Program-made: the position numbers and the translations under genes
Notes under the pieces: model-generated
What the model was told of the DNA's origin: nothing
Databases searched by the model: none
What the model saw: only the letters and a program-made list of their open reading frames with translations
Source of the DNA: Gemmatimonadaceae bacterium
Lineage (GTDB): Bacteria > Gemmatimonadota > Gemmatimonadetes > Gemmatimonadales > Gemmatimonadaceae
NCBI GenBank assembly: GCA_020846935.1
Contig: JADLCY010000001.1
Span: 372,001-436,000 of the forward strand
DNA: 64,000 nt
Direction of reading: 5' to 3'
Part shown: one piece after another, positions 6,169 to 56,353 of the stretch
Layout: each line of letters starts with the position of its first letter
How positions within the stretch are numbered: the stretch's first letter is position 1

Positions 6169-8295
6169 TCACACCGGGTTCGACCGTTCGAGCGCACTCC
6201 GCACGGCGTGGGCGAGCGCTGTGTGATCGTACGGCTTGGAGAGCAGGTGTAGACTGGTCGCCGCGGTGCGGTGCTGGATGATGTCGAGCGAGTAGCCCGA
6301 GGTGAACAGCGCGGGAAGCTCGGGGCGCCTGGTTCGCAGTTCGGCAGCGAGTTCCAAACCGGAGAACGGGCCTGGCAACACCACGTCGGTGAACAGGAGA
6401 TCGATACGGGGCTCGGCGTGCGCACGCGCCATCGCTTCCGGTCCATCGGCGGCCGCGACGACGTGATACCCCAGTGACTCGAGCATGCGCGTCGCGCCGG
6501 CGCGCAACGCGCGATCGTCTTCGGCCAGGAGGATCACCTCACCGTGACCGCGCGGCGCGTCTGTCGCCCGGATGGGGTGCTCCTCGGTTGCGTCATCGGT
6601 GGTCAGGGGGAAATAGAGTTTGACCGTCGTACCCTGCCCGACCTCGCTGTACACCCTGGCGTGCCCGCCCGACTGGCGCACGAAGCCGTACACCATCGCC
6701 AGCCCGAGCCCCGTCCCCTCGTTCGCCGGCCGGGTGGTGAAGAACGGCTCGAAGACGTGCGGCAGGACGTCGGCAGGAATGCCCGTGCCCGTGTCGGCGA
6801 CGGAGACATAGCTGAAGTCTCCCGCCCTCGCATCGGGATTCGCCCGGGCGTAGTGCTCGTCCAGGTGCAGCCGACCGCTCTCGATCACGAGCAGCCCGCC
6901 GCGCGGCATCGCGTGTCGCGCGTTCACGACAAGGTTGAGGATCGCGGTGTCGAACTGCACGGGGTCGATCTTCGTGGCCCCGGCGTCCCGCAGGTTGAGC
7001 CGGAGCACCACGTCCTCCCCAACCGTGCGCTGCAGGAGTGGTTCCATCTGGCGCAGGACGTCGCTGACCGCGATGCGCCGCGGCTGCAGGGGCTGACGCC
7101 TCGCAAAGGCCAGGAGTTGTTTCGTCAGGTCGGACGCGCGTGTGGCCGCCGCGCGAATCTCGTCGATCGCCTCCTTGTCTTCCGTGAATGTGGGGCTCCG
7201 CGGATCGATACGGACCAGCGACGCGTAACCAAGGATCACCGCCAGCAGGTTGTTGAAGTCGTGCGCCACGCCACCGGTGAGGCGGCCGAGCACTTCGAGG
7301 TGCTGCGAGCGCTGGGCGGCGAGCTGCATCGCCACACGGCGATCCTGCAGCCTGAAGGCGGCGAGGAGAGACGCCGCGGCGACGAGCGTCAGAAAGCCGA
7401 GGATGACAGCAGACACCCGACCGTCGCGATCAACCCAGGCCAGCACCTCGCGCTCGCTGAGTGACACGGCGACGACCAGGGACTGCTCGCGCATCGCGAC
7501 GACACCGTTGCGCATGGCGGGCTGCGCGGGCGTTTCCGCGGTCCGAAGCGTTCCGGCCCCGTGCGCGAGCCCGAAGGCAAGCAGGGGATCCGCCGCGGCA
7601 TCGTCACCGATCGCCGCGCGCATCGAGGGCTCGCGCAGGAGCACGACGCCGTGTGCGTGCAGCAGCGACACCATGCCCTCGGCGCCCACGTCGATCGTGT
7701 GGAAGAAGGCCCGCAGCGAGTCGGGCCTCAGGGTCGCGATCACCATGCCGTCGAACGCGCCTCGGGCGTCCTCGAGGCGACGGCCAAGCGGAATCATCAG
7801 GCCACCACCGAACACCGCGCGCACGGGCGACGGCGTCGACGCCACGAGGCCGGCGCCGGCGTCCGAGGAGAGCACGCCGAACAGGTACCCGGCCCGGCGC
7901 GACTCGCCCACCATGGTGGGGAGCGTCGCGTGACAGATCACGCCGTCGCGATCCACGACCGAGATGCCGCCCACCGTGCCAATACCCGCGCGGGCCGCGG
8001 CGAGGAGCGGTTGCCATTCGCGCTCCGGGGCACGCGGTCCTCCGATCCGCGCGTTCGAGGCCGCGAGCTGTCGCAGCGCAGCGTCCTGCGCAGCGAATGC
8101 CTCGCGCACGTAGCGGGCGAGGATGTGCGCGAGGTCGAGGGCCCGCTGGTCGCTGGCCTGCAGCGCGCGGTCGCGCCGCAGTGCCAGCTCAAACCCCCTA
8201 AGCACGGACAGCAGCGCCAGCACCGCCACCGTGAGCAAGATCGCGTTCCGCCGGAAAGCACCGCGCGGGTCGCGTCGTGGACTGCCACCAGCCAT
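6169..8295 (-). CDS. hybrid sensor histidine kinase with receiver domain
   Basis: The 708-residue membrane sensor has a first TM helix at about residues 19 to 38, a periplasmic dCache-like region of some 240 residues, and a second TM helix near residues 300 to 320. The HisKA dimerisation box GGVAHDFNNLL holds the phospho-acceptor His345. An HATPase domain follows (VVNARHAM, DTGTGIP, EPFFTT, GTGLGLA), then a C-terminal receiver with the acidic pocket AEDD, phospho-acceptor Asp637 in FTDVVLP and conserved Lys in SKPYD. The start is ATG 8295; a longer frame only overlaps antisense DNA. No separate output regulator lies beside it, so the phosphorelay partner is encoded elsewhere. It lies 161 bases downstream of leuS on the same strand. 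Confidence 0.9.
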   Translation of the reverse strand: MAGGSPRRDPRGAFRRNAILLTVAVLALLSVLRGFELALRRDRALQASDQRALDLAHILARYVREAFAAQDAALRQLAASNARIGGPRAPEREWQPLLAAARAGIGTVGGISVVDRDGVICHATLPTMVGESRRAGYLFGVLSSDAGAGLVASTPSPVRAVFGGGLMIPLGRRLEDARGAFDGMVIATLRPDSLRAFFHTIDVGAEGMVSLLHAHGVVLLREPSMRAAIGDDAAADPLLAFGLAHGAGTLRTAETPAQPAMRNGVVAMREQSLVVAVSLSEREVLAWVDRDGRVSAVILGFLTLVAAASLLAAFRLQDRRVAMQLAAQRSQHLEVLGRLTGGVAHDFNNLLAVILGYASLVRIDPRSPTFTEDKEAIDEIRAAATRASDLTKQLLAFARRQPLQPRRIAVSDVLRQMEPLLQRTVGEDVVLRLNLRDAGATKIDPVQFDTAILNLVVNARHAMPRGGLLVIESGRLHLDEHYARANPDARAGDFSYVSVADTGTGIPADVLPHVFEPFFTTRPANEGTGLGLAMVYGFVRQSGGHARVYSEVGQGTTVKLYFPLTTDDATEEHPIRATDAPRGHGEVILLAEDDRALRAGATRMLESLGYHVVAAADGPEAMARAHAEPRIDLLFTDVVLPGPFSGLELAAELRTRRPELPALFTSGYSLDIIQHRTAATSLHLLSKPYDHTALAHAVRSALERSNPV

Positions 8296-50244: not shown

Positions 50245-52320
50245 ATGCGATTGCCCATCCTCCTGCTCTGTGGTCTCCCGGCGGCGCTTGCACCGCTTCA
50301 CGCTCAATCGCGCGTGACGCCAGCGACCCGGAGTGTCGACTGGCCGGTGTATCAGGGCGACGACGACCACACGCACTACACCACGCTCGATCAGATCTCG
50401 CCCGCCAACGTCGCGCGACTTCGCGAGGCGTGGATCTACGACACCCGGGACGCGTTTCCAGGATCGGAAATGCAGTCCAACCCGGTCATCCTCGACGGCG
50501 TGCTGTATGCCGTGTCGCCCAAACAGCGCGCGTTCGCACTCGACGCCGCCACGGGACGTGAACTGTGGAGCTTCGATCCCACCGGCGGACAGTTCACGGG
50601 ACCGCGGATCCGCTATCGCGGCGTCGTCGTGCATGACGACCGGGTGTACTTCAACTACCGGCATCGACTCTTTGCGCTCGATGCGCGCACCGGCAGGAAG
50701 GCCACGGGATGGGGGAACGACAGCGGCTGGGTCGACCTTCGTGCAGGACTCGGCCGTCCCGTTGACGGACTCTCGGTGAGTTCGAGTACGCCGGGTGCCG
50801 TCTACAAGGATCTGCTCATCGTCGGCACCACGGTACCCGAGGCGCTTCCATCTGCGCCCGGCGACATCCGGGCGTACGATGTGAAGACCGGCGCCCTTCG
50901 CTGGACGTTCCACACCATTCCGCACCCAGGCGAATACGGCTACGAAACGTGGTCCCCGGACGCGTGGAAGATTGTGGGTGGCGCCAACGCGTGGGCGGGC
51001 GTGACCGTCGACCAGCGTCGCGGCATGGTGTTTTTTGCCACGGGTTCTGCCTCGTACGACTTCTACGGAGCCAATCGGCTGGGCGACAATCTGTTCGCCA
51101 ACAGCGTCGTCGCGCTCGACGCCAGCACGGGCAGGCGCATCTGGCACTTCCAGGGCCTCAAGCACGACTTGTGGGACCGTGACTTTCCGGCGTCGCCGAC
51201 CCTCGTGACGGTCACACGGAACGGGCGGCGCGTGGACGCGGTCGCGCAGGTGACCAAGACGGGACACGTGTGGCTCCTCGATCGTACCACCGGGCGCGAA
51301 CTCTTTCCCAGCGAATGGAAACGCATGCCCAAGGCCACGCTCGATGGCGACGTCGCGGCCGATTCGCAGCCATTCCCGGTACGCCCGCCGCCGTTCGCGC
51401 GCCAGCAGTTGACCGAAGAAGGTCTCACGGATCGGACGCCCGAGGCACGCGCGGCGGCGCTCCGGATCTTCAGGGAAAACCCGACTCCACACCCGTTCAC
51501 GCCCCCCAACACCACCGGCATCCTGATCTTCCCGGGCGTTGACGGCGGCGCCGAGTACGGTGGACCGGCGTTCGATCGGGAAACGGGCCTGCTGTACGTC
51601 AACTCCAACGAGATGGCGTGGCTGCTCAAGATCGTTCCTCGTGAGGATGCGACGACGTTTGGCAGGTATTGCGCCGAGTGTCATGGTGCAAAGGATTCAC
51701 CGATGGCGCCTTCGCTCACCGGGGTGGGCCAGCGCCTGACGAGGGAGCAGATCGCGAAGACGATTCGCGAAGGAACGGGGCGCATGCCGGCGTTTGCCTC
51801 GGCGCTCGACAACGTCGCGGTGGGCGACCTGGTGGAGTTCCTCGTTACCGGCAAGGACGTCGCGTCCACCGCAGGGTCCAACCCGTTCTACGTGAAGTAT
51901 CGCAACACCGTGTTCGACATCTTCCTCGATCACGAGGGGTACCCCGCGATCAAGCCGCCCTGGGGCACGCTGAACGCCATCGATATCAACCGTGGCACGA
52001 TCCGGTGGAGTATCCCGTTCGGGGAGTACCCCAAGCTGGTGGCACAGGGGCTGCGCAACACGGGGAGCGACAGCTATGGCGGGGCGATCGTGACCCGTAA
52101 CGGATTGCTCATCATCGCGGCCACCACCTATGACAACAAGATTCGCGCGTTCGACAAGCGAAACGGTCGCGTGCTATGGGAAGCGGCGCTGCCAGCGGCG
52201 GGCATGACCACGCCGGCCACGTACATGGTGCACGGCAAGCAGTACATCGTCATCGCCGCGGGCGGTGGCAAGAACGGCACGCCAAGCGGCGGGAAGCTGG
52301 TTGCGTTCGCTCTGCCGTAG
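50245..52320 (+). CDS. PQQ-dependent dehydrogenase with inserted cytochrome c domain
   Basis: The 691-residue exported quinoprotein has a signal peptide ending PLHAQ. The first 450 residues form the beta-propeller of PQQ alcohol/glucose dehydrogenases, with tryptophan-docking phrases such as ALDAATGRELWSF, AYDVKTGALRWTF and ALDASTGRRIWHF. A cytochrome c domain (heme motif CAECH, Cys476, Cys479, His480) is inserted at about residues 465 to 550. The propeller then resumes (GTLNAIDINRGTIRWS, KIRAFDKRNGRVLWEA). It should oxidise an alcohol or sugar in the periplasm and pass electrons through its own heme. Substrate is unknown, and no pqq biosynthesis genes are in view. Confidence 0.88.
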   Translation: MRLPILLLCGLPAALAPLHAQSRVTPATRSVDWPVYQGDDDHTHYTTLDQISPANVARLREAWIYDTRDAFPGSEMQSNPVILDGVLYAVSPKQRAFALDAATGRELWSFDPTGGQFTGPRIRYRGVVVHDDRVYFNYRHRLFALDARTGRKATGWGNDSGWVDLRAGLGRPVDGLSVSSSTPGAVYKDLLIVGTTVPEALPSAPGDIRAYDVKTGALRWTFHTIPHPGEYGYETWSPDAWKIVGGANAWAGVTVDQRRGMVFFATGSASYDFYGANRLGDNLFANSVVALDASTGRRIWHFQGLKHDLWDRDFPASPTLVTVTRNGRRVDAVAQVTKTGHVWLLDRTTGRELFPSEWKRMPKATLDGDVAADSQPFPVRPPPFARQQLTEEGLTDRTPEARAAALRIFRENPTPHPFTPPNTTGILIFPGVDGGAEYGGPAFDRETGLLYVNSNEMAWLLKIVPREDATTFGRYCAECHGAKDSPMAPSLTGVGQRLTREQIAKTIREGTGRMPAFASALDNVAVGDLVEFLVTGKDVASTAGSNPFYVKYRNTVFDIFLDHEGYPAIKPPWGTLNAIDINRGTIRWSIPFGEYPKLVAQGLRNTGSDSYGGAIVTRNGLLIIAATTYDNKIRAFDKRNGRVLWEAALPAAGMTTPATYMVHGKQYIVIAAGGGKNGTPSGGKLVAFALP

Positions 52321-52680
52321 GTACAGCAGCGTCTGCCGCCTGGGGCGCTGGGCGATCCCGCTTGCGACCCGCGACCCGACAAGCCGGGCGCTCCGCCTGC
52401 ACCGCCGACGCAACAACGCGGGCGCACCAACGTGCGCCCGGCCAGGCAACAACGGGGCGATCCAGCTCGTACCGTGCGAGACGACACCGAGCGCGATCCA
52501 CCCCTCCCGGTCGCAACGCTCGGAGTGGCATGGCGTTCCACTGTCGTCGCGCCCTGTCGGCATGTGGCCAACTGGCGACCGGCCCAGTCGTCGCGGACCC
52601 GTGTCATATGCCGGGGCCCCCTCTCGCACTCAGGCCCATCACGACGCCAGCCACTCACTCCCGCGAGGGGACGTATACCC
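52321..52680 (+). other. 360-base spacer with one hairpin
   Basis: No coding sequence is supported. A perfect 9-bp stem with CAAC loop (52419 to 52440, CGGGCGCAC and complement) lies 98 bases after the dehydrogenase stop and may end its transcript. No other structured element or clear promoter stands out before the lipoprotein ATG at 52681, which has GAGGGG about 12 bases before it. Confidence 0.45.
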
Positions 52681-53796
52681 ATGAGACGAGCCACGCATCG
52701 CACCACCAGCCGCGCCCTGGTGCCCGCGCTGATCCTTCTATCGGCGCTCGCGGCCTGTGAGCCGGCCACGGCCCCGACGGAGTCACCGCTGAACGCGCGC
52801 GAAGCACTGGCCGACTACCAGGCGATGCAGAAGGTCTTCACCACGCAAGGATGGGCCGGACTCCAGGCGCTCGGCGGTCGCACGCCGCTCGCCGCCGGCG
52901 CCGCGGCAACCGTCCTGCGAACGCTTCCCGGCGTTCCCGGCGAGCGCACCGGCCGCAACTTCACCGTCGCCTTCCTTCGCGACCTCGCCGCAGTCAAGGC
53001 CAGCCACGGGACGCAGGAGACGCTCGCACGCACTGTGATCTCACCGGTGCACCTCGGGCGCACCTGGGTCTATGACGCCGCCCTCGACCGCTATGTGATC
53101 GACCCGCGCCGTACCGGCGCCCCCGCCAACGGCACGCGCTTCATCGTCTATGAACTCGACGCGGCGAAGAAGCCGATCGTCTCGCGCGAGATCGGACACG
53201 CCGACCTCCTCGATGAGGGCGCCAACACCGGCTCCGCCGTCGTGCTTCGCCTTATTCTGGTCGAGCGCGGGCGTACCATCGTGGACTATCGGACGCGCGC
53301 CGATCTCAAGGGCGACATGGGCGAGGTCGACGTCGACGGGTACGGAATGGACGAGAAGGGTACGCGCCTCTCGTTCGATATCGACGTGACGGCTCGCCAG
53401 CTCGGCGGCGATACGCGCATCGACGCCGACTTCGAACTCGCCCTCGAGCCGCGTGGATTCACCGCGACCGGCGCGGTGCGCGGCGTGAAGGAAGGCAACG
53501 GCGGTGGTGGCAGCATTTCGCTCACCCTGCGCCACGAAGCGAACGTGCTCAAGGTGCAGGCGACCGAGGCGAACCAGAAGATCGACGGCTCCATGGAGCT
53601 CAACGGCAAGCTCTTCGTACGCATCACGGGCGATGCCAAGGCACCGACCCTGCGGGGCCCGAACGGCGAACCGCTCACCAACGAACAGCTCGCCTTCGTG
53701 GCGGCCATCGTCGTGATGTCAGAAGACGTGTTCGATCTCGTGGAGGACCTGGTGGAGCCGGTGGACAACCTGCTCCTGCTCGGCTGGATCCTCTGA
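52681..53796 (+). CDS. lipoprotein of unknown function
   Basis: The 371-residue product has a lipobox ending at Cys26 (SALAACEP). The mature part alternates loop and strand segments, with a repetitive middle (DLKGDMGEVDVDGYGM, LSFDIDVTARQLGGDTRIDADFELALEP) that suggests a beta-barrel-like or beta-sandwich fold, and a C-terminal acidic helix (VMSEDVFDLVEDLVEPVDNLLLL). I do not recognise a family. It may be an outer-membrane-associated structural lipoprotein. A strong hairpin follows, before the beta-barrel gene. Confidence 0.6.
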   Translation: MRRATHRTTSRALVPALILLSALAACEPATAPTESPLNAREALADYQAMQKVFTTQGWAGLQALGGRTPLAAGAAATVLRTLPGVPGERTGRNFTVAFLRDLAAVKASHGTQETLARTVISPVHLGRTWVYDAALDRYVIDPRRTGAPANGTRFIVYELDAAKKPIVSREIGHADLLDEGANTGSAVVLRLILVERGRTIVDYRTRADLKGDMGEVDVDGYGMDEKGTRLSFDIDVTARQLGGDTRIDADFELALEPRGFTATGAVRGVKEGNGGGGSISLTLRHEANVLKVQATEANQKIDGSMELNGKLFVRITGDAKAPTLRGPNGEPLTNEQLAFVAAIVVMSEDVFDLVEDLVEPVDNLLLLGWIL

Positions 53797-53881: not shown

Positions 53882-54511
53882 ATGCGCCGCTCATTCCGCT
53901 GGTCCACGCTCGTGCCGATGGCGACTTTCGTCGTGCTTCCCGTCGCGTCGCACGCCCAGGTCTCCACCACGCGAGGCTTGTCAATTGGCGTCCACGCGAT
54001 CGGAACTTCGCTGACCGCCGAAGGCAACGACACGCGCAACGGAGGCGGCCTGAGCGCGCGCATCGGTTACGGCTTCAACCGCATTGTGACGGGGTTCGTG
54101 CACATCGACGGCTCGGAGATCGAGATCCCCGAAGCATCGTCCGACGGCACGGGAATCACCGGCGCCTGGAGCATGGGCCACGCGGAGATCGGCGCACGCT
54201 TTCACTTCGCCAATTCGCTCCGGCGCTGGGTTCCCTACCTCGAGACGTCGGCGGGCGCGCGCGTCGTGTCGGTGAACGATGCCAGGGTGAACGGACAGAC
54301 CGCCGGCAAGGTGGACTTCAAGGGCGGCGCGTTCACGTTAGGCGGTGGGCTCTCCGCATTCTTCCGGCCGAATCTCGCCTTTGACGCGTCGCTCAAGTTC
54401 ACGAGCGGCGAGTTCACGGAAGTCGACCTGGGAGGCGTCTCCCTGCAGAACCTGGAGATCGAAGCCACGTCGGTGCGCTTTGGCCTCGGCCTGATCTGGT
54501 GGCCCAAGTAG
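53882..54511 (+). CDS. small outer-membrane beta-barrel protein
   Basis: The 209-residue product has a signal peptide ending ASHAQ and about eight to ten amphipathic strands with Gly-rich turns (GLSARIGYGFNRIVTGFVHI, AEIGARFHF, FTLGGGLSAFFRPNLAFDASLKF). It ends with an aromatic-rich strand (FGLGLIWWPK). This matches OmpA/OmpW-type small barrels of unknown pore function. It may stabilise the outer membrane. A TTA codon in GTTAGGC occurs at 54337. No Shine-Dalgarno sequence is visible. Confidence 0.72.
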   Translation: MRRSFRWSTLVPMATFVVLPVASHAQVSTTRGLSIGVHAIGTSLTAEGNDTRNGGGLSARIGYGFNRIVTGFVHIDGSEIEIPEASSDGTGITGAWSMGHAEIGARFHFANSLRRWVPYLETSAGARVVSVNDARVNGQTAGKVDFKGGAFTLGGGLSAFFRPNLAFDASLKFTSGEFTEVDLGGVSLQNLEIEATSVRFGLGLIWWPK

Positions 54512-54621: not shown

Positions 54622-55065
54622 TCAGGGTGATTCGGCGCGCAGCTTCTTCAGAGCGTCCTGCTGTTCCGGTTTGAGGAGGTTCTTGATGCGCACGAGGAGC
54701 GTGAGGTGCGCCTCCTTGATGCGGCGCTCCACCTGAAGTACGCGACCCATCTGGTCCTGCGCCCGATCCAGGTCGACGCGGGGCCGGCTGAGCTCGACGG
54801 ACAGCGCTTCGGTGTGTTCCTTGAGGTCCCACTGCAGGCTGACGACCTGACCCTGCAGGTCGCGGATGAGCCGGCTGATGGCGTCACGCTGCTCGTCGCT
54901 GAGGCCGATGGCCCTGCGATGCTTCATGATCAGCTCCGGCTCGAACAGCGCACGATTGATCGGGTCATCGACGCTCGGTACCGCCTGCGTGTGTGCGAGC
55001 TGTGGCGCCGCCACGAGCGTGGCGAGCACCAGGGTCATCCGCACGAGGGAGCGACGCGGGGTCAT
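54622..55065 (-). CDS. periplasmic Spy/CpxP-like helical protein
   Basis: The 147-residue product has a signal peptide ending QLAHTQ. The mature part is helical with LTxxQ-type elements (LSDEQRDAISRL near residue 55, LKPEQQDALKKL near residue 135), a signature of Spy, CpxP and CnrX-like chaperone/sensor proteins. Histidines in MKHRR, KEHTE and EAHLT could bind metal. It overlaps the upstream gene's stop as ATGA and is the third gene of a sigma/membrane-protein/Spy-like unit. Confidence 0.75.
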   Translation of the reverse strand: MTPRRSLVRMTLVLATLVAAPQLAHTQAVPSVDDPINRALFEPELIMKHRRAIGLSDEQRDAISRLIRDLQGQVVSLQWDLKEHTEALSVELSRPRVDLDRAQDQMGRVLQVERRIKEAHLTLLVRIKNLLKPEQQDALKKLRAESP

Positions 55066-55448
55066 GACCCTCTCCGGTTGCTGGTGCCCGGCAGCGAGAG
55101 GCCGCGGCCGATGAACTCCGACCCCGGCACCGACAGGAGCCCATCGGTCGGCGAATGCAGCGACGATTCGAGGCGTGACCACTCCTCCACGGTCCGGTCG
55201 AACTCGCGATTCTTCAGGCGCTCCGGCACCACGAGGATCGCCGCCAATCCGGCTGCCGCGACAAAGGGCGCGGCCCACACCAGTACGCGGCGGCGCGACC
55301 AGCGCTCCGGGAGTACGGGCACTCGTTCGTCGCTCGCTCGCGCCGCGGCCAGCATCGCATCAAACGCAGGCGCACGGGCAGCGTCGAGCGCCTGCTGCCT
55401 CGTGTAGTGAGCCCGCAGTCGCTCGTCGAGTTCACGCGTTTCGATCAT
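55062..55448 (-). CDS. single-span membrane protein, possible anti-sigma factor
   Basis: The 128-residue product has a cytosolic N-terminal half rich in Arg/Ala helices (residues 1 to 50), one TM helix (about 55 to 75, LVWAAPFVAAAGLAAILVV), and a periplasmic tail of about 50 residues. That layout fits a membrane anti-sigma factor, although no zinc-type ZAS motif is visible. It sits between an ECF sigma gene and a Spy-like gene with 4-base overlaps on both sides. By position it resembles CnrY; this is inference from context. Confidence 0.6.
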   Translation of the reverse strand: MIETRELDERLRAHYTRQQALDAARAPAFDAMLAAARASDERVPVLPERWSRRRVLVWAAPFVAAAGLAAILVVPERLKNREFDRTVEEWSRLESSLHSPTDGLLSVPGSEFIGRGLSLPGTSNRRGS

Positions 55449-56044
55449 GGTGTCCTCCGCGGACGATTGGTCGCGGCATCGCCGGCGCCCTTTGGTTCAA
55501 CGGCCGATTGATTCGGATCGGCCGGGTCGCCGGCCTGCGTCGGCGACAGCATGGTGCGCAGACGCTGCTTGCCGCGCTCATAGTGCGTTCGTGCCGAGCC
55601 CAGCGACACACCCATGACCACGGCGGCTTCGGCAATGCTCACGTCCTGATAGAAAACGAGGTGCAGGACTTCCTGCTGTCGTGGCGCCAGGCGCTGCAGG
55701 GCTTGACGCAACGCCTCGCCCTGCTCCGCCTCGATATAGGCCACGTCGACTGGCTCCGTGGCGCGCTCGTCGTCGTCCGGCGCGCCGGGATACAGGTGAC
55801 GAGTGCGATCGCGCGAGCGTTCGAGGGCGGTCAGCCGGATCACACCGAAGAACCACGTCTTGAACGACGAGCGGCCACCAAACCGAGCCGTCCCCGTCAG
55901 CACCTTGGCGTAGGCCGTCTGCAGCGCGTCGGCCGCCTCGTCGGCGTCTCCGCGACAGCAACTGCATGCCCAGCCAAAGCTCGCCTCGTGGAGCGAGGCG
56001 AGCGTGGCCTCGAGGTCGACTGCTGGCGGCTGGGGCAGCGCCAT
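55445..56044 (-). CDS. ECF-family RNA polymerase sigma factor
   Basis: The 199-residue protein has region 2 (EAADALQTAYAKVL and SSFKTWFFGVIRLTALERSR at about residues 35 to 75) and region 4 (LAPRQQEVLHLVFYQDVSIAEAAVVMGVSLGSARTHYERGKQRL, roughly residues 115 to 160, helix-turn-helix). It is the first gene of a triad coupled through ATGA overlaps. The long acidic linker (PGAPDDDERATEP) and basic C-terminal tail are unremarkable. It would respond to an envelope or metal signal through the next gene. The 309 bases upstream (56045 to 56353) hold no other gene. Confidence 0.9.
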   Translation of the reverse strand: MALPQPPAVDLEATLASLHEASFGWACSCCRGDADEAADALQTAYAKVLTGTARFGGRSSFKTWFFGVIRLTALERSRDRTRHLYPGAPDDDERATEPVDVAYIEAEQGEALRQALQRLAPRQQEVLHLVFYQDVSIAEAAVVMGVSLGSARTHYERGKQRLRTMLSPTQAGDPADPNQSAVEPKGAGDAATNRPRRTP

Positions 56045-56353
56045 CCGGTGGGGCTGAGGGTCTCATCCGGGATTGGTGCGCCCCGGTGGTGGAACATATG
56101 ACACCGGCTCCGTGCGGTCGCCTTGGCCGTGCGGGGTACGCGGGGAGGAACCCCTCGTCGACCCCCGTGTGGATCGGGAACCATACCGATCGAGCCGGCC
56201 GTGATCACGAAACACATGGCCCCGGGGCGTATTGCGACGTCCAGCAGGTGACTCGAATGCTTCGCCCCAGCCTCCCCGGTGGGCCGGGTCCGTGAACCCT
56301 ACGGTGGCGGGTGGATCAGATGAGCGGACGGCCGTGCGCGCCTCAGTCGTGGG
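56045..56353. other. gene-free spacer upstream of the ECF sigma gene
   Basis: I see no gene. On the minus strand toward the sigma start there is no convincing promoter; three GGAAC words (56091, 56147, 56177) lie on the wrong strand for it. The rest is unremarkable GC-rich sequence. Confidence 0.4.

Follow-up and report, generated by a model that had tools for sequence, protein, structure and literature searches.

A conserved ECF sigma factor, putative anti-sigma factor and Spy/CnrX-fold protein triad with a characteristic promoter signature and a predicted lipoprotein/beta-barrel output

In the window, i.e. the whole stretch of 64,000 nucleotides from a Gemmatimonadaceae bacterium that was analyzed, three minus-strand genes for an ECF sigma factor, a single-span membrane protein (hereafter the middle protein) and a Spy-like periplasmic protein form an operon. 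It is convergent with the operon of a lipoprotein gene and a beta-barrel gene, the latter probably co-transcribed with the former. The relevant features are as follows.

52603..52632, plus strand: GTCATAT-N17-CACTCA, the other perfect match to the promoter signature, separated by 48 nt from the lipoprotein ATG
52681..53796, plus strand: predicted target lipoprotein, 371 aa, lipobox LSALAAC
53882..54511, plus strand: predicted target outer-membrane beta-barrel, 209 aa, PF13505 with 31.7 bits
54622..55065, minus strand: gene of the Spy/CnrX-fold periplasmic protein, 147 aa, PF13801 superfamily
55062..55448, minus strand: middle gene, putative anti-sigma factor, 128 aa
55445..56044, minus strand: ECF sigma factor gene, 199 aa, regions 2 and 4 only
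56073..56102, minus strand: GTCATAT-N17-CACCAA, predicted ECF promoter under autoregulation, with 28 nt between its end and the sigma ATG

The initial annotation had described three minus-strand genes joined by ATGA at 54622-56044. These coordinates were exact, and the ORF boundaries placed the two overlaps at 55445-55448 (sigma/middle) and 55062-55065 (middle/Spy-like). A genome search returned a single copy of the triad. A sigma70-type promoter was looked for at the locus and none was found, the one terminator site detected was within chance expectation, and no RNA structure was evident 3' of the Spy-like gene (z 0.01). What looks like a PQQ-type dehydrogenase ORF with a C-terminal CAECH haem motif (50245-52320) lies directly before the lipoprotein operon.

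The sigma factor matched Sigma70_r2 (33 bits, residues 31-82) and Sigma70_r4_2 (50 bits, residues 110-162) in Pfam, both above the cut-off. The absence of region 3 and the short linker identify it as an ECF (group IV sigma70) factor, and its group is marked by the stretches FGWAxSCC, RSSFxTWxFGVIR, RQxEVLHLVFY and GSARTHYERGK. The middle protein gave no meaningful match in the PDB, Pfam or NCBIfam. HxxxCxxC, the zinc motif of ZAS anti-sigma factors, was absent from the window protein and from nearly all of its relatives; in the middle slot it was seen only in the two hybrids described below and in two Myxococcota. AlphaFold2 modeled helices at residues 2-25 and 29-41, which make up a head with an APxF kink, a membrane helix at 55-73 and a periplasmic helix at 76-96. 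Confidence was high for the head (pLDDT 87-96) and low for the tail, which appears flexible. An alignment of 54 middle sequences yielded the consensus LRxxFxxLRxxDxxxAPxF for the head and W-x-[SA]PT-D-x-LL-x-x-PG-x-x-LL-x-x-x-P for the periplasmic tail. The earlier suggestion that the middle gene, lacking a ZAS motif, may encode a new type of anti-sigma factor is supported as to a candidate, and the protein fits a putative anti-sigma factor of a candidate family absent from Pfam.

The Spy-like protein carries a signal peptide (about residues 1-27). Its match to PF13801 (Metal_resist, 26.8 bits) was just below the cut-off of 29.2, and 56 of 57 Spy-like relatives matched this family at E <= 0.01. 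The AlphaFold2 model (pLDDT 89) had CpxP, CnrX, ZraP, Spy and NccX as its closest solved folds in Foldseek, with E values of 0.05-0.3 that are modest and usual for small helical folds. CnrX entries were among the best fold matches (TMt 0.65-0.71, probability 0.99-1.00, E 0.07-0.3), and the Spy-like profile found E. coli Spy with an E value of 7.5e-5. Unrelated helical bundles were interspersed among the VIA-align matches, and these matches were excluded from the evidence. Domains and fold matches support the combination of ECF sigma factor, single-span membrane protein and CnrX-fold protein for which the initial annotation had proposed a CnrH/CnrY/CnrX-like triad.

Conservation of the gene order (sigma factor, one-span membrane protein, Spy-like protein) is strong and reciprocal and extends across phyla. 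Scanning named genome contigs with the Spy-like alignment yielded 67 loci labeled as Gemmatimonadota, Acidobacteriota (including Chloracidobacterium), Myxococcota/Deltaproteobacteria, Verrucomicrobia and others, and almost all of those with sufficient upstream DNA had the order sigma, middle, Spy. A -4 overlap was present at 38 sigma/middle and 41 middle/Spy joins of these loci, and the ATGA overlap between sigma and middle genes is the majority condition. The reverse search gave 28 loci selected through the middle gene, with the sigma gene upstream and the Spy-like gene downstream wherever the contig was long enough. All three genes were present together at 117 loci, which were reduced to 100 non-redundant ones by removing near-identical sigma genes; full triads were mostly found in Gemmatimonadota, Acidobacteriota and Myxococcota. 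Middle-gene homologues were detected in 11 of 149 relatives by single-sequence search, two of these (L022 and L023) being spurious antisense chance matches that were rejected, and in 42 of 298 genomes within the phylum by profile. Profile searches found relatives of the Spy-like protein in 29/297 genomes of an Acidobacteriota set and 23/188 of a Myxococcota set, mostly as members of triads. An unconserved gene order had been named beforehand as grounds against the triad; the order was kept across phyla.

The sigma genes share a promoter signature. GTC[AC]TAT-N17-[CG]AC[TC][CA]A occurred 5' of 82 of the 100 non-redundant sigma genes versus 8.35 per 100 in Markov shuffles, as counted with a fixed matcher (GTC[AC]TAT, spacer and [CG]AC, mostly extended to [CG]AC[TC][CA]A). 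The spacer was exactly 17 nt in 75 of the 82. No promoter lay immediately 5' of the other 18 sigma genes; some Myxococcota have it before an upstream lipoprotein gene instead. A classical ECF promoter (GAAC...CGT) was also considered for the position before the sigma gene and was rejected, as it showed no enrichment over shuffles; the signature differs from the AAC/CGT hallmark of such promoters (PMC8103513). Exactly two perfect copies of the signature exist in the 4.5-Mb genome. Both lie in the window, 3.5 kb apart, one before the sigma gene and one before the lipoprotein gene, at a background for the perfect pattern of about one site per genome elsewhere. Paired sites at the triad locus were seen in G000, G015, G053, G061 and G228 among 27 triad genomes examined. 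A perfect second site preceded the lipoprotein gene in 10 other loci, and in most of the 11 it was located 41-60 nt before the homologous lipoprotein. In the window genome, the second copy predicts a regulon that appears to comprise only the triad and the adjoining lipoprotein operon.

The lipoprotein itself had no match in Pfam, NCBIfam or the PDB. Homologues of lipoprotein and barrel adjoin the triad in many relatives, and in L039 and L055 (Gemmatimonadota) the lipoprotein gene lies 3' of the Spy-like gene and shares its strand. In the Myxococcota loci L072, L074, L078, L079 and L082, the promoter precedes a DUF4349-type lipoprotein gene located ahead of the sigma gene, the type having been checked with Pfam for L082 and assigned by similarity for the other four. 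L049 and L077, also from Myxococcota, have the promoter before another lipoprotein gene placed ahead of the sigma gene. The arrangement suggests that an unrelated lipoprotein takes the output slot in the DUF4349 loci. The lipoprotein family extends more widely than the triad: it occurs in 53 of 149 relatives, and some genomes have several copies. In L034, the lipoprotein ORF (about 7088-8158) is split across two frames in the assembly and has no perfect second site.

Head and tail of the middle protein are modular. In two loci labeled Acidobacteria, L056 and L067, a ZAS head with HxxxCxxC replaces the usual head; zf-HC2 was recognized with 24.1 bits, above the cut-off, in L067 and with 15.6 bits, below it, in L056. 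A tail-only HMM built without these two sequences still detected the tail in both (E 2e-9 and 1e-7), and a Spy-like gene still follows the hybrid middle gene. The accompanying sigma factors are different ECF factors, with sigma-profile E values of 4e-14 and 3e-4 versus about 1e-60 elsewhere, and the promoter signature was not found at either locus. The swap is seen in two metagenome-assembled loci, in one of which (L067) the sigma gene is frame-broken in the assembly; both swaps probably go back to one event, and no further ZAS hybrid was clearly found in Acidobacteriota. ZAS heads are known sigma-binding domains (PMC4598750). Because its head can be exchanged for such a domain, the middle gene appears to fill the anti-sigma slot. 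The head changes with sigma and the tail stays with the Spy-like protein; of the indirect evidence, this speaks most strongly for a head that binds sigma and a tail that the Spy-like protein reads. Distance matrices (mirror-tree) pointed the same way for the head, which tracked sigma rather than Spy (partial-correlation contrast 0.12, bootstrap 0.01-0.25). For tail with Spy, the contrast of 0.095 (interval -0.05 to 0.23) had the right direction and was not significant. In L175 and L177 (Myxococcota), a ZAS-type membrane protein adjoins a more distant Spy-like protein and lacks the tail motif; this may be another pairing of ZAS and Spy.

We regard it as likely that the locus encodes an envelope-stress ECF switch, autoregulated, with the Spy-like protein as partner and a one-locus output. 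The two-helix cytoplasmic head of the membrane protein would keep sigma inactive, and the periplasmic tail with its SPT-D-x-LL-x-x-PG motif would be read by the Spy/CnrX-fold protein. A change in the state of the latter, e.g. upon binding of unfolded envelope protein or another ligand, would cause the head to free sigma, which would then take RNA polymerase to promoters of the signature type. Its own operon would be switched on in a positive feedback, and expression of the lipoprotein and beta-barrel genes would be the output. Unfolded envelope protein is favored as the signal because Spy and CpxP, which stress induces in E. coli, act as chaperones or adaptors. A narrower version, which we put forward tentatively and hold to be possible rather than probable, is a widespread system with the Spy-type chaperone as the direct sensor that grips the tail peptide; the sigma-binding head would be exchangeable for a zinc-finger one, head and tail would evolve independently, and client load would report envelope protein damage to RNA polymerase. 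If the Spy-like protein is the sensor, chaperone occupancy would be linked directly to an ECF sigma factor, and signaling by CnrX-fold proteins devoid of metal ligands would be explained.

Rather unlikely, in our view, is a Spy-like protein that is a mere output chaperone or a CpxP-like feedback damper, with the membrane protein sensing alone, e.g. through regulated proteolysis of its tail. The roles of Spy and CpxP in E. coli would agree with this, the Spy-like gene sits behind the promoter predicted to be autoregulated, and the flexible tail is a possible protease target. However, the tail motif accompanies the Spy gene when head and sigma change, and it is kept in the Myxococcota that have an unrelated target lipoprotein. 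That the motif survives both exchanges argues for a direct link between tail and Spy-like protein.

The initial annotation had left metal and envelope stress as alternative signals. Envelope stress stands as a possibility, and metal sensing of the CnrX kind is not supported. A true CnrX-type sensor would bind Co, Ni, Zn or Cu and free sigma via the membrane protein. The fold is indeed that of CnrX, ZraP and NccX, PF13801 bears the name 'heavy-metal resistance', and histidines are common at positions 49 and 120 (21/27 and 20/27 Spy-like proteins in a sample drawn independently of the pattern; the figure of 62/63 for H49 from the scan is inflated since the scan pattern included this residue). 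Of the metal ligands of CnrX (H42, H46, E63, H119 and M123), the four compared are not retained, though: residues aligned to H42, H46, H119 and M123 of the pMOL28 protein are I/V/L, Q/R, L and I, respectively. Q or N, both poor metal ligands, frequently stand in place of H49 and H120, and the case for these two as a metal pair was weakened by how often this happens in samples not chosen by pattern. Neither an efflux nor a metal gene was found at the triad locus, and the predicted output is a lipoprotein and a barrel. Since the CnrX ligand positions examined are unconserved and H49/H120 are too often Q or N, Co/Ni sensing of the CnrX type is not supported by the alignments, and we consider a metal sensor improbable. 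Still less probable is a middle protein that serves as an accessory membrane anchor with sigma controlled otherwise, which would accord with the lack of a sequence match to known anti-sigma families; the bona fide ZAS head in its place in L056 and L067 and the ATGA overlap with sigma in most loci speak against it.

Among characterized systems, CnrYXH (Cupriavidus metallidurans pMOL28, cobalt/nickel) resembles the triad in having an ECF sigma factor, a one-span anti-sigma factor with a short non-zinc head, a CnrX-fold partner and overlapping genes. It differs in its order, which is Y-X-H rather than sigma, anti-sigma, sensor, and in its regulon; the triad has neither the metal ligands of CnrX nor an RND pump. 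CnrY and the triad head showed no detectable sequence kinship (8 bits, from the membrane helix only). The triad was not filed as Cnr because ligands, gene order and output fail the defining features of that system. Class II (CnrY-like) anti-sigma domains wrap sigma2 and sigma4 with a short, zinc-free head of two helices; of these traits, the middle head shows two helices in the model and no zinc motif. The class I ZAS proteins (ChrR, RsrA, RsiW) share with the middle protein the slot behind an ECF gene and, in the two hybrids, supply the head on a triad tail, whereas the window protein lacks a zinc motif and its head consists of just two helices. Spy, CpxP and ZraP share the fold and LTXXQ-like motifs with the Spy-like protein; they belong to two-component systems, whereas the triad protein accompanies an ECF/anti-sigma pair. 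ECF41 likewise has its own promoter signature and a one-locus regulon, but its signature, TGTCACA-n16-CGTC (PMC3426412), is different, and ECF41 has no anti-sigma factor but a regulator fused at its C-terminus. The RpoE8 operon of Azospirillum brasilense is annotated as sigma factor, hypothetical protein and 'periplasmic heavy metal sensor' (PMC12826043) and, by annotation alone, has the gene order of the triad. With this precedent, the order is not new by itself; the novelty lies in the candidate anti-sigma family and its tail motif, in the ZAS hybrids, and in the promoter and predicted regulon. The locus offers a candidate anti-sigma family in several little-studied phyla together with a promoter and a minimal predicted regulon, and few constructs would be needed to test whether sigma is bound, whether the promoter is used and what the Spy-like protein does.

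The sigma group may belong to those that PMC8103513 describes as unstudied and may already have a place in the existing ECF classification. Neither the triad promoter nor a link between DUF4349 and a sigma factor was named in the open literature searched. At L038 (5153-5923), one reading frame joins region 2 of the sigma factor to the middle protein, and region 4 is absent; the promoter is still present 5' and the Spy gene 3' of the fusion. Gene decay, an artifact of the assembly or a natural fusion of sigma2 with the anti-sigma factor would account for it.
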